Origin: Candidatus Poribacteria bacterium
GTDB taxonomy: Bacteria > Poribacteria > WGA-4E > WGA-3G
Length of the DNA stretch: 64,000 nt
NCBI GenBank assembly: GCA_022824265.1
Contig: JAJEAG010000053.1
Span: 1-64,000 of the forward strand
Direction of reading: 5' to 3'
Shown: in pieces, positions 34,269 to 60,903 of the stretch
How the letters are laid out: every line of letters begins with the position of its first letter
Numbering within the stretch: position 1 is the stretch's first letter
Notes under the pieces: model-generated
Told to the model about the DNA's origin: nothing
Seen by the model: only the letters and a program-made list of their open reading frames with translations
Databases searched by the model: none
Program-made: the position numbers and the translations under genes

Positions 34269-34796
34269 CTATTTCGTTAGTCTTTCTATAATTTTATCCA
34301 CAACACTATCAGCACGTTCTTGTATCTGTTCCTGTGTAAGACTTTGTATAGGATGGGCAACGGTCAATGGCTCCATCTCATTATATCCAAGTACACGTGC
34401 TTGAACTTTTCCCGCAGAGAAAAACACTTCTGAACATATTGCTACACTTGGAACACCGCGTTCCTCTAAAACTGATCCGTCGTGCATACTGCACGAAATA
34501 CAGGAACCTCAGTCAGCAAGTCCTTCTATAACGAAATCTACGCTTTGAGCAAGGTTTCTAAGAAGTTCGGTTGGTGCTGGACGTGCAAATGTAGGTTTTT
34601 TGACACGGACAACATCAGCAATCTCAAATTGATTGCATATTAATTCCTCAACACGATCAAGGAAAATATCACTACCTTTTTTTGTTATGTCAAGTATACC
34701 CATGACTTTACCATTTAAATCAGTAAATCGTGGTGCTAATTTTTTATCAACTTGTTCTCCCTCATAGGTGGGATCAAGTAATGTAATATTTGCCAT
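34269..34796 (-). CDS. UGSC-family selenoprotein (in-frame TGA encodes Sec96)
   Basis: Reading through the TGA at 34511-34509 gives 175 residues. The N-terminal part (I-T-L-L-D-P-T-Y-E-G, then I-L-D-I-T-K-K-G-S-D-I-F-L) and the C-terminal part (M-H-D-G-S-V-L-E-E-R-G-V-P) join at A-D-U-G-S-C-I-S-C, the U/T/C-G-S-C motif that gives the family its name. A hairpin fitting the bacterial SECIS pattern starts 13 nt after the TGA. The family is thought to be redox-active and is distantly linked to glycine-reductase-type selenoproteins; the reaction is unknown. The ATG at 34796 has GGAAAGAG upstream. It lies 15 bp after a TPR gene, under a consensus promoter. A routine gene finder would split it into two false genes. 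Confidence 0.92.
34481..34495 (-). promoter_or_regulatory. Bacterial SECIS element of the UGSC gene
   Basis: Minus-strand hairpin CGUGC-AGUAU-GCACG. The apical loop begins 18 nt after the UGA, has five bases and has G in its second position. This meets the published pattern for bacterial SECIS (loop 16-37 nt from UGA, G among the first two loop bases). Confidence 0.8.
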
Positions 34797-34811
34797 AAAA
34801 TCTCTTTCCAA

Positions 34812-37704: not shown

Positions 37705-38751
37705 ATGACAAACAAAAAGATCCGTCTTACAGAAACCGTTAAATGTGCGGGATGAGCATCAAAATTGGCTCCGGGTGAGCTTTCACACATATTAGATAAC
37801 CTACCCAAATGTACTGACCCAAACCTTCTCGTCGGGACTGAAACCTCCGATGATGCAGGAATATACCGTATTTCAGATGACCTTGCCCTTGTCAATACGG
37901 TGGATTACTTTACACCTATTGTTGATGACCCATATACTTTTGGTGCGATTGCAGCTACGAATTCACTCAGCGATGTATATAGCATGGGAGGAGTTCCCAA
38001 AACTGCATTAAATATCACCTGCTGGCCCAAAGAGGATCTTGAACTCTCAATTCTGGGGGACATTGTGAGAGGAGGGGCAGAAAAAGCAGCTGAATCCGGT
38101 ACAGCACTTGTAGGTGGACACACAGTGGAATCTCCAGAACTTATGTATGGATTGGCTGTGACTGGAGTTGTTCATCCTGAAAAATATGTCAAAAATCACG
38201 GTGCACGGTTGGGAGATGTCCTAATTTTAACGAAAAAGCTTGGTATAGGTATTCTCACAACTGGATTGAAATTCAACAAAATCAGTGATGAAATTCTACC
38301 ATCATTAGTTGAATCGATGACAAGACTGAATGCTACTGCATCTGAAGTGATGTTAAAATACGGTGTATCAGCATGTACAGATGTCACTGGTTATGGGTTG
38401 TTAGGTCATGCATCGGAAATGGCAGAAGGGAATGATGTTCGCTTGCAGATAAATAGCGGTGATGTACCATATTTTAATGATGCACCTGCACTTGTTGCAA
38501 AGAATACCTATACTCAAGCCTATCTGTCTAATACTAAGTTTCTTGCCGATAAGGTATCATTCCGCACATCAGTATCAGAAGAAATGCGTCATATTATGAT
38601 GGAGGCTGAAACGTCTGGGGGATTATTATTTGCCCTACCAGCAGAAAATGCGGATGCAGCAATAAAGGAACTACATGCTGCTGATTGTCCAGAAGCCGCT
38701 ATAATTGGTGAAGTGGTTGCAGGAGATGAAGCACACATTGAAGTGCATTAG
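37705..38751 (+). CDS. selD: Selenide, water dikinase with selenocysteine in the active site (Sec17)
   Basis: The ATG at 37705 opens M-T-N-K-K-I-R-L-T-E-T-V-K-C-A-G, then TGA at 37753-37755, then A-S-K-L-A-P-G-E-L, the universal SelD catalytic stretch C-A-G-C/U-A-x-K. The full protein is 348 residues, normal for SelD. The glycine-rich ATP-site segments (V-G-T-E-T-S-D-D-A-G, L-V-G-G-H-T-V-E, C-T-D-V-T-G-Y-G-L-L-G-H) follow. SelD makes selenophosphate from selenide and ATP, the donor for Sec-tRNA synthesis. A start after the TGA (TTG at 37765) would lose the catalytic residue and Lys. It precedes pyrE by 23 bp. selA, selB and selC are outside the window. Confidence 0.95.
37768..37780 (+). promoter_or_regulatory. 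Putative bacterial SECIS element of selD
   Basis: GCUC-CGGGU-GAGC. The loop begins 17 nt after the UGA and has G in its second position, fitting the bacterial pattern. The stem is short (4 bp plus a possible G-U pair). Confidence 0.65.
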
Positions 38752-59477: not shown

Positions 59478-59700
59478 GTCTGAACCAGGATGGACAGGAT
59501 TTCAGGATTTGCAGGATAAGAGGTTGCTTCTGAGGTAGAGGGATGGTCGCGATTCGGAGATCGCTCCTACAGAAGAGGATGTGGGTGAAGACGGTTGAGG
59601 ATACCTCGCCCCTACGATGTTGTCTGAACGAGGATTTTCAGGGTAATAGGTTGCGATTCGGAGAGTGCTTCTACAAAGGAAGGCTTAATATTGAAAATAA
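59478..59700. repeat. Dispersed repeat copies
   Basis: Two TGTCTGAAC-led stretches (about 59478 and 59620) and two GCGATTCGGAGA-led stretches (about 59549 and 59652), the latter ending GCTCCTACAGAAG and GCTTCTACAAAGG. Related phrases occur at about 12739 and 12945, so the families are scattered through the genome. Confidence 0.6.
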
Positions 59701-59745: not shown

Positions 59746-59774
59746 TTGACACATCAGTTGTTTTCTGTTACAAT
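59746..59774 (+). promoter_or_regulatory. Sigma-70 promoter of the double-TGA beta-barrel gene
   Basis: TTGACA at 59746-59751, a 17-bp spacer, TACAAT at 59769-59774, about 85 bp before the ATG at 59860. It shows that transcription starts upstream of the signal-peptide part, supporting the extended gene model. Confidence 0.75.
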
Positions 59775-59859
59775 TATTAACATTGAAAAATGCACACATA
59801 TTTAGCATCAAACATTAATAAAAACTTTACAATATACATTATTCTGAGGTAAAAATATT

Positions 59860-60903
59860 ATGAAAAGACTTGTTTCGGTAATACTTGCCATTCAATTCAT
59901 ATTTATATCTCTTAGTTTTGCCCAAGAGAGCTGAGGCGCGTGAAGTAATCCCACCATCCCACAAGGTGGTGGTAGTGAAGTTAGTTTAACTTCAGAGCAA
60001 AATAGGTTTCAGTTTTCATTTGGTACACGTGGATTCAATGCACAAGGTGCACATCATGAGAGGAAAGGACTATCTGCAACTGGAGAAGTCATTCAGGTAG
60101 CACAACATCAACATGAAGTGCAGATGAATGTTGTCCGGTTTGATTTCGGTCTAAAATACCAACTCAATCCCCAATTTCGATTGGAAGGTACTTTCCCTTA
60201 TGATATAAAAAGTCAAGATGCAAATATTCCTGATATAGATGGGTTTGAAGATCCTGAGGAGAGGGCTGCAATGCTCCGAAATCAGGATATACATCACAGG
60301 AATGCAACCTACCGTGGTGTATCGGATCCAGATCTTCTGTTGGGTTATACTAAGCATGGTATCCTTGGTCAACATGATATGCTCACAACGAAAATCGGGA
60401 CAACGATACCGTTTGGAAAAACTGAAGATGACCCTTGGGTTCTTGGAGATATGGGAAAAGAACACCTACATCTCCAATTTGGCACAGGGACATTTAATCC
60501 TATTGCTGATATGCAGTATAGGTTTCATGTCTATAGTGGGTTGTCTGCGAATGTAAGTATCCGTGGTAAGTTCCCATTTTATGAGAACAGCAAAACATAC
60601 CGTGGATCATGGGATGTAACTTATACAGGCGGGTTGAATTATCGCTTGAATGATTGGCTTACACTTCAATCAAGTTATTTAGGTCTCTATCAATCTTATG
60701 CATATTGGGCAGGTGAGAAGGACATCAATACGGGGTTACGCTTCAGCATGGCATCTTTGGGTGCGTCTTTTGCGACACCATATAATGTACCGCTTACAGT
60801 GTTGTTCATGTTGCCGATACATCAGGAAACCTTGTATGATGATGATAGTGATGCCTTTAAATTGAGTGCACTGGTTTCCGTTACGGCATTATACTCTTTT
60901 TAA
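59860..60903 (+). CDS. Candidate selenoprotein: outer-membrane beta-barrel with N-terminal U-x-x-U motif (TGA at codons 25 and 28)
   Basis: The ATG at 59860 has GAGGT nine bases upstream. It opens M-K-R-L-V-S-V-I-L-A-I-Q-F-I-F-I-S-L-S-F-A, a clear signal peptide. TGA follows at 59932-59934 and 59941-59943, giving mature Q-E-S-U-G-A-U-S-N-P-T-I-P. The frame then stays open to 60903 (347 residues). After a Gly-rich and a His-rich stretch (H65, H66, H83, H85) comes a barrel-like region: alternating strands such as L-K-Y-Q-L-N-P-Q-F-R-L-E-G-T-F, and the C-terminal V-T-A-L-Y-S-F. Between the second TGA and codon 87 there is no start codon, so a conventional call (GTG 60118) would lack any export signal. 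By analogy the Sec pair would replace a Cys-x-x-Cys. Periplasmic redox or metal binding is inferred. It could be a pseudogene, but the intact frame and signals argue against that. Confidence 0.72.
59951..59972 (+). promoter_or_regulatory. Hairpin after the two TGA codons, possible SECIS
   Basis: CCACCAUC pairs with GGUGGUGG (8 bp, one G-U) around the loop CCACAA. The loop starts 25 nt after the first UGA and 16 nt after the second. Position and stem fit a bacterial SECIS, but the first two loop bases are C, so the usual G is missing. Confidence 0.45.

Follow-up and report, generated by a model that had tools for sequence, protein, structure and literature searches.

Does the gene at positions 59860..60903 (forward strand) of the analyzed window, a 64,000-nucleotide stretch of contig JAJEAG010000053.1 from Candidatus Poribacteria bacterium, encode a selenoprotein with two closely spaced selenocysteines (Sec) on an outer-membrane β-barrel, and what could such a pair do there? 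The phylum Poribacteria consists of uncultivated bacteria, most of them associated with sponges. The comparative evidence, consisting of the double TGA, the exchange between Sec and Cys, the Sec machinery of the host and purifying selection, makes it very probable that codons UGA25 and UGA28 are both decoded as Sec, although there is no experimental proof. We are evenly divided over the complete statement, a Sec-decoded double-Sec outer-membrane channel family of Poribacteria with a metal role. Within it, export and the barrel are predicted, and the plug position, metal binding and diselenide are inferred.

The frame comprises 347 codons from ATG 59860 to the stop codon TAA at 60901-60903, including the two TGA codons read as Sec. 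As the initial annotation had described, it is continuous except for TGA 59932-59934 (UGA1, Sec25) and TGA 59941-59943 (UGA2, Sec28), which lie three codons apart in the local motif S-U-G-A-U-S-N-P. With both TGAs read as Sec, the protein of 347 residues is MKRLVSVILAIQFIFISLSFA|QES-U-GA-U-SNPTIPQGGG.... The standard gene finder output at this position is only a 261-aa ORF from 60118, which misses the signal peptide; ordinary annotation thus drops both the signal peptide and the U-x-x-U motif.

The upstream signals proposed earlier were also recovered. A consensus scan assigned 11 of 12 matches to a predicted sigma-70-like promoter, TTGACA-17-TACAAT (59746..59774, forward strand), the top-scoring site of the region; the number of sites there is not above chance, and no functional data exist for the promoter. 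By sequence inspection, a Shine-Dalgarno-like GAGG (59846..59849, forward strand) is located 10 nt 5' of the ATG, and residues 1-21 (59860..59922, forward strand) form a putative signal peptide with predicted cleavage at SFA|QES. Since the signal peptide has no lipobox, the mature protein is expected to start at Q22, with the Secs as mature residues 4 and 7, so that the motif falls at the predicted mature N-terminus as had been claimed. Q22 is invariant among homologues, whereas the hydrophobic segment varies. The predicted mature N-terminal tryptic peptide is pyroGlu-ES-U-GA-U-SNPTIPQGGGSEV.... Two other roles for the motif were rejected, the lipidated +1 residue of a lipoprotein, as no lipobox precedes U25, and a c-type haem site, as U-x-x-U is followed by Ser rather than His. 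Directly 5' of the gene, at ~59545-59680 of the window, there are short repeats (gattcggaga-tcgct-cctaca and variants) that resemble a dispersed intergenic repeat.

One scan of GTDB contigs with a single-sequence query identified 13 relatives, which are 55-93% identical, all carry U-G-A-U and come without exception from Candidatus Poribacteria MAGs. The host genome (4.45 Mb in 100 contigs) itself possesses a paralogue that is 53% identical to the window copy and keeps both TGAs. Using a profile search, we found the family in 67 of 85 Poribacteria genomes, all from a single order: it is present in 59/59 genomes of the window's family and in 8/14 others of its order, and in 0/12 genomes outside the order. 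The motif could be read in 117 copies as UGAU (80 copies, 2 of them in visibly decayed genes), CPAU (36) or CSAU (1). Codon 28 is TGA in 117/117 copies, and codon 25 is TGA in 80, TGT in 29 and TGC in 8, that is, Sec in 80 copies and Cys in 37. In the maximum-likelihood tree, the CPAU copies form one fully supported clade, the CSAU copy stands separately inside a UGAU group, and UGAU is basal; therefore, at least two Sec/Cys changes occurred at position 25. The dN/dS ratios 3' of the TGAs are about 0.03-0.24 in ten pairs.

According to the initial annotation, homologues without Cys or Sec at both sites, or with TAA, TAG or frameshifts, would refute the proposal. The proposal withstood these tests: no TAA, TAG or residue other than Cys or Sec occurs at positions 25 and 28 in the 117 readable copies. 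A few truly decayed copies exist in other genomes. Of the homologue types it suggested looking for, U-x-x-U was recovered, alongside C-x-x-U; no all-Cys homologues were found in the 85 Poribacteria genomes or in plasmids. Outside Poribacteria, no relatives were found in ~300 genomes of other phyla (searched with A1) or in a second set of 374 genomes (searched with A3), in which the listed genomes are mostly small; these searches did not target Desulfobacterota and similar Sec-rich groups. No Rfam matches were found in the window. The broken or frameshifted family copies are L134 (G019), L135 (G028) and L136 (G046), with intact relatives elsewhere. In addition, a conserved Trp position is occupied by a third TGA in L044 (G054), and several family members themselves end in TGA.

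The ability of the host to insert Sec had been inferred from selD and a UGSC gene in the window, and the rest of the genome supports this inference. The selD gene (37705-38748, forward strand) is of the Sec type, with an in-frame TGA at 37753 in CAGUASK, and its product is 38% identical to E. coli SelD; the UGSC-type selenoprotein gene (34272-34811, reverse strand) has its TGA at 34511. The window therefore holds three Sec genes, including the barrel gene. Elsewhere in the same genome, selA was found on contig 85 and selB on contig 34, followed after ~60 bases by tRNA-SeC(tca). Two criteria for a bacterial selenoprotein are fulfilled: selA, selB, selD and tRNA-Sec(UCA) are all present in the host, and the in-frame TGA is conserved and replaced by Cys only. 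At the same time, TGA serves as an ordinary stop in 6/33 long frames in the window and in 5/18 in other loci of this genome. Taken together, the Sec machinery and the continued use of TGA as a stop indicate that Sec is decoded in this genome without global recoding, and global TGA reassignment was rejected.

The TGAs are followed by two hairpins, H1 (CCACC / GGTGG; 59951..59969, forward strand) and H2 (59976..59994, forward strand), the latter with 8 bp and a GUU loop, TGAAGTTA-GTT-TAACTTCA. In 44 diverse U-U sequences, 89% of cells are paired in the main helix of H1 (6-7 bp), with both-side changes at 2/6 pairs, and 96% of cells are paired in H2, with both-side changes at 5/8 pairs; some of these changes are silent (GTC..TTG vs GTT..TTA). 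None of 500 shuffles and none of the slid registers reached the covariation of the hairpins. H2 is a candidate SECIS-like element, and the weaker H1 is possibly part of the Sec-insertion signal; because simple hairpin scans can fold the H1 region in two registers, we did not assign H1 and H2 to UGA1 and UGA2, respectively. The published strict bSECIS constraints are a loop of 3-9 nt, a G in the first two loop positions, a distance of 16-37 nt from the UGA and MFE <= -7.5 (PMC13188914). Applied to UGA2, they are satisfied by 41/80 UGAU and 29/32 CPAU distinct sequences, and also by 19% of simple shuffles. The 8-bp hairpin seen earlier is present and covarying, but the window copy fails the strict rule because 40 nt separate UGA2 from the H2 loop, above the limit of 37; H2 itself fits the loop and stem rules. 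Some bacterial SECIS elements are known to lie outside the bSECIS model (PMC13188914). The hairpins are likely to be the Sec-insertion signal, which is unproven.

The remainder of the gene (60007..60900, forward strand) is predicted to encode a 12-stranded outer-membrane β-barrel, in agreement with the exported barrel of the initial annotation and on the basis of AlphaFold, Foldseek and invariant columns. The AlphaFold model, built with 53 family members, is a barrel in which we count 12 strands, with pLDDT 81.8 and pTM 0.79, and a pLDDT of about 50 in the N-terminal segment. The best Foldseek matches among solved structures are FapF (5o67, E 4e-13) and a COG4313 channel (4rl8, E 2e-10); sequence identity is 11-12% in both cases. 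Weak matches to PF13557 (Phenol_MetA_deg) were obtained for 18/53 members at E <= 0.1 (best 2.5e-5). The window copy matches neither PF13557 nor any NCBIfam model, Pfam scans gave no CopB-type match, and a sequence search of the PDB returned chance matches only. Seven His residues are invariant across 53 diverse members (65, 83, 85, 145, 146, 202 and 204 in the full-length protein; 44, 62, 64, 124, 125, 181 and 183 in mature numbering), and those of strands 1-2 are on the polar, presumably lumenal, face of the barrel. The phylum also contains another barrel family rich in His/Met ('SRPDSHAPIGVMGDHGHK'; L003, L138, L139 and L140; G000:C69 and relatives), which lacks the Sec motif. These weak HMM matches were rejected as family members, and their barrel is possibly another metal-related channel.

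The suggestion of metal binding, made earlier from a His-rich stretch, draws support from the neighbourhood of the C-x-x-U paralogue and none from the neighbours of the window copy. This copy is a solitary gene with a predicted promoter of its own, flanked on one side by an ABC-transporter/DUF6807 cluster and on the other by CBM/DUF7700 genes, beyond which are moaA-like and sufC-like genes (named from sequence inspection). In all 36 loci of the C-x-x-U paralogue, a small exported Cys-rich protein is encoded upstream (e.g. L154:7214-7651, L156:7477-7911, L166:6697-7164); it has no Pfam or NCBIfam matches and its family is unknown. In 23/36 loci, the retrieved flank additionally encodes an outer-membrane efflux protein (OEP) and a protein with a YHS domain, and YtkA-like His-rich and FMN-binding-like proteins are nearby in 11/36. 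The loci that were read further (L154, L156 and L157) continue with a CusB-like adaptor with heavy-metal-binding domains (HMBD), four of them in L154, and then a CusA/CzcA-family RND pump, whose L154 copy scores above the NCBIfam cut-off. Among U-U copies, that of G028 also has small Cys-rich, YtkA-like and FMN-binding-like neighbours. An aldo-keto reductase adjoins 55/80 U-U copies, and a family-5 (peptide-type) ABC binding protein is found beside 37/80.

From these data we propose the following model. SelB and tRNA-Sec would decode UGA25 and UGA28 as Sec, the protein would be exported and cleaved after residue 21, and the mature protein, freed of its signal peptide, would form a 12-stranded outer-membrane channel. 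In a COG4313 structure, the lumen is blocked by ~14 N-terminal residues that fold inward (PMC4493636). The QES-U-G-A-U-SNP segment may similarly lie at the periplasmic mouth or in the lumen, its orientation and insertion being assumed by analogy only. There, the Sec pair (Cys-Sec in the paralogue) would most likely form, together with the invariant barrel His, a binding or gating site for soft metals (Cu(I)/Ag(I)/Hg(II)-like), and a reversible diselenide may be the metal-free or oxidised form of the pair. The metal reading is based mainly on the operon of the paralogue and the invariant His, and additionally on the precedent of OprC, in which Cys/Met of the plug and His/Met of the barrel bind copper (PMC8610252). 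Most UGAU copies, being beside aldo-keto reductase and peptide-type ABC genes and not metal genes, speak against the whole statement.

The main rival dispenses with metal and casts the pair as a diselenide switch: a redox centre (diselenide or selenenylsulfide, of the SelL or thioredoxin kind) by which the channel is gated or stabilised, or which passes electrons to and from periplasmic partners. The spacing of U-x-x-U and C-x-x-U is classic for redox pairs, the aldo-keto reductase adjoins most UGAU copies, and most prokaryotic selenoproteins are considered redox proteins (PMC13188914). Moreover, 119/128 sequences have no Cys 3' of the motif, and the window protein has none at all, so the pair could react only within itself or with partners. 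However, the metal-efflux operon of the C-x-x-U paralogue, the seven invariant His and the absence of a thioredoxin fold argue against it; we treat this alternative as possible, yet with a clearly smaller chance than the metal site. Still less probable is a barrel that transports hydrophobic compounds, as in COG4313 channels, or secretes a polypeptide, as FapF does, with the Sec pair merely stabilising the plug. The fold matches to 4rl8 and FapF and the weak Phenol_MetA_deg matches are what such a function would predict, but identity to both structures is only about 11-12%, and neither fap nor aromatic-degradation genes were identified among the neighbours listed or in the subset of them that was profiled. 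In addition, the strictly retained Sec and the invariant His argue for chemistry.

With respect to the codons themselves, reading of UGA as another residue, through near-cognate readthrough or general TGA reassignment, would be consistent with the failure of the window copy under the strict bSECIS rule. We judge it highly unlikely, given that Cys alone replaces UGA in homologues, that tRNA-Sec, selA and selB are present, and that TGA still terminates genes, some members of this family among them. A pseudogene or sequencing artefact, with the TGAs as ordinary nonsense mutations, can be dismissed with near certainty despite the few truly decayed copies in other genomes, since both TGAs are kept in independent MAGs and in the paralogue, Cys is the only replacement and dN/dS is low.

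The proposed double-Sec barrel was compared with an inventory of prokaryotic selenoproteins from 2026 that covers 119 families, in which outer-membrane barrels are represented by NF041027 and NF049945 with a single Sec each, and U-x-x-U is listed only for Prx-like proteins, metal-binding NF041115 and FmdB proteins (PMC13188914). The Poribacteria family is absent from this inventory and, within the open literature and the searched genomes, is therefore a new selenoprotein family with an unusual fold and two Sec. No text on Poribacteria selenoproteins was found in the open-access literature; subscription journals were outside the search. Whether this is the first channel family with a double-Sec plug, having a lumenal Sec-x-x-Sec/His site for soft-metal binding or sensing or for diselenide gating and a C-x-x-U paralogue in a Cus-type operon, is in our estimate a question with equal weight on either answer. 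The family adds two close Sec to the outer membrane, a location with few known selenoproteins, and its natural U-x-x-U / C-x-x-U pair makes the contribution of each Sec directly addressable. It also raises the questions of how decoding copes with two UGAs spaced by nine bases, and whether Sec acts as a metal ligand in the envelope. Toxic-metal handling is a possible role of the channel protein.

Among known systems, PcoB/CopB and OprC handle copper at the outer membrane, which resembles the role that is only inferred for the Poribacteria barrel, and a His/Met-rich N-terminal region is found in most PcoB homologues (PMC12509749). They differ in having no Sec, and the Poribacteria family lacks a CopB-type Pfam match. 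The GSU2204/MtrB-PioB type (NF041027) and the TonB-dependent receptor FCYXU (NF049945) are likewise outer-membrane barrels with Sec; however, they have a single Sec and belong to other families, and neither model matches ours. The closest fold is that of the amyloid exporter FapF (5o67, E 4e-13), which at 12% identity has no known Sec motif and whose fap genes do not adjoin the Poribacteria copies, among the neighbours listed. The COG4313/Phenol_MetA_deg (PF13557) channel 4rl8 shares the 12-stranded barrel and a similar size (E 2e-10, with weak Pfam matches), but it is about 11% identical, has no Sec and is implicated in the uptake of hydrophobic molecules, and cysteine is not mentioned in PMC4493636. 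The U-x-x-U diselenide of fish SelL is credited to Shchedrina et al. 2007 in PMC3316567. Our diselenide is a mere analogy to it, without bond data. SelL and the bacterial Prx-like, NF041115 and FmdB proteins share with the Poribacteria family two Sec with two residues between them. To our knowledge, and judging from the family names, none of these is an outer-membrane barrel. The Prx/thioredoxin-like fold of SelL is not met by the Poribacteria protein, a predicted β-barrel, whereas its U-x-x-U spacing is.
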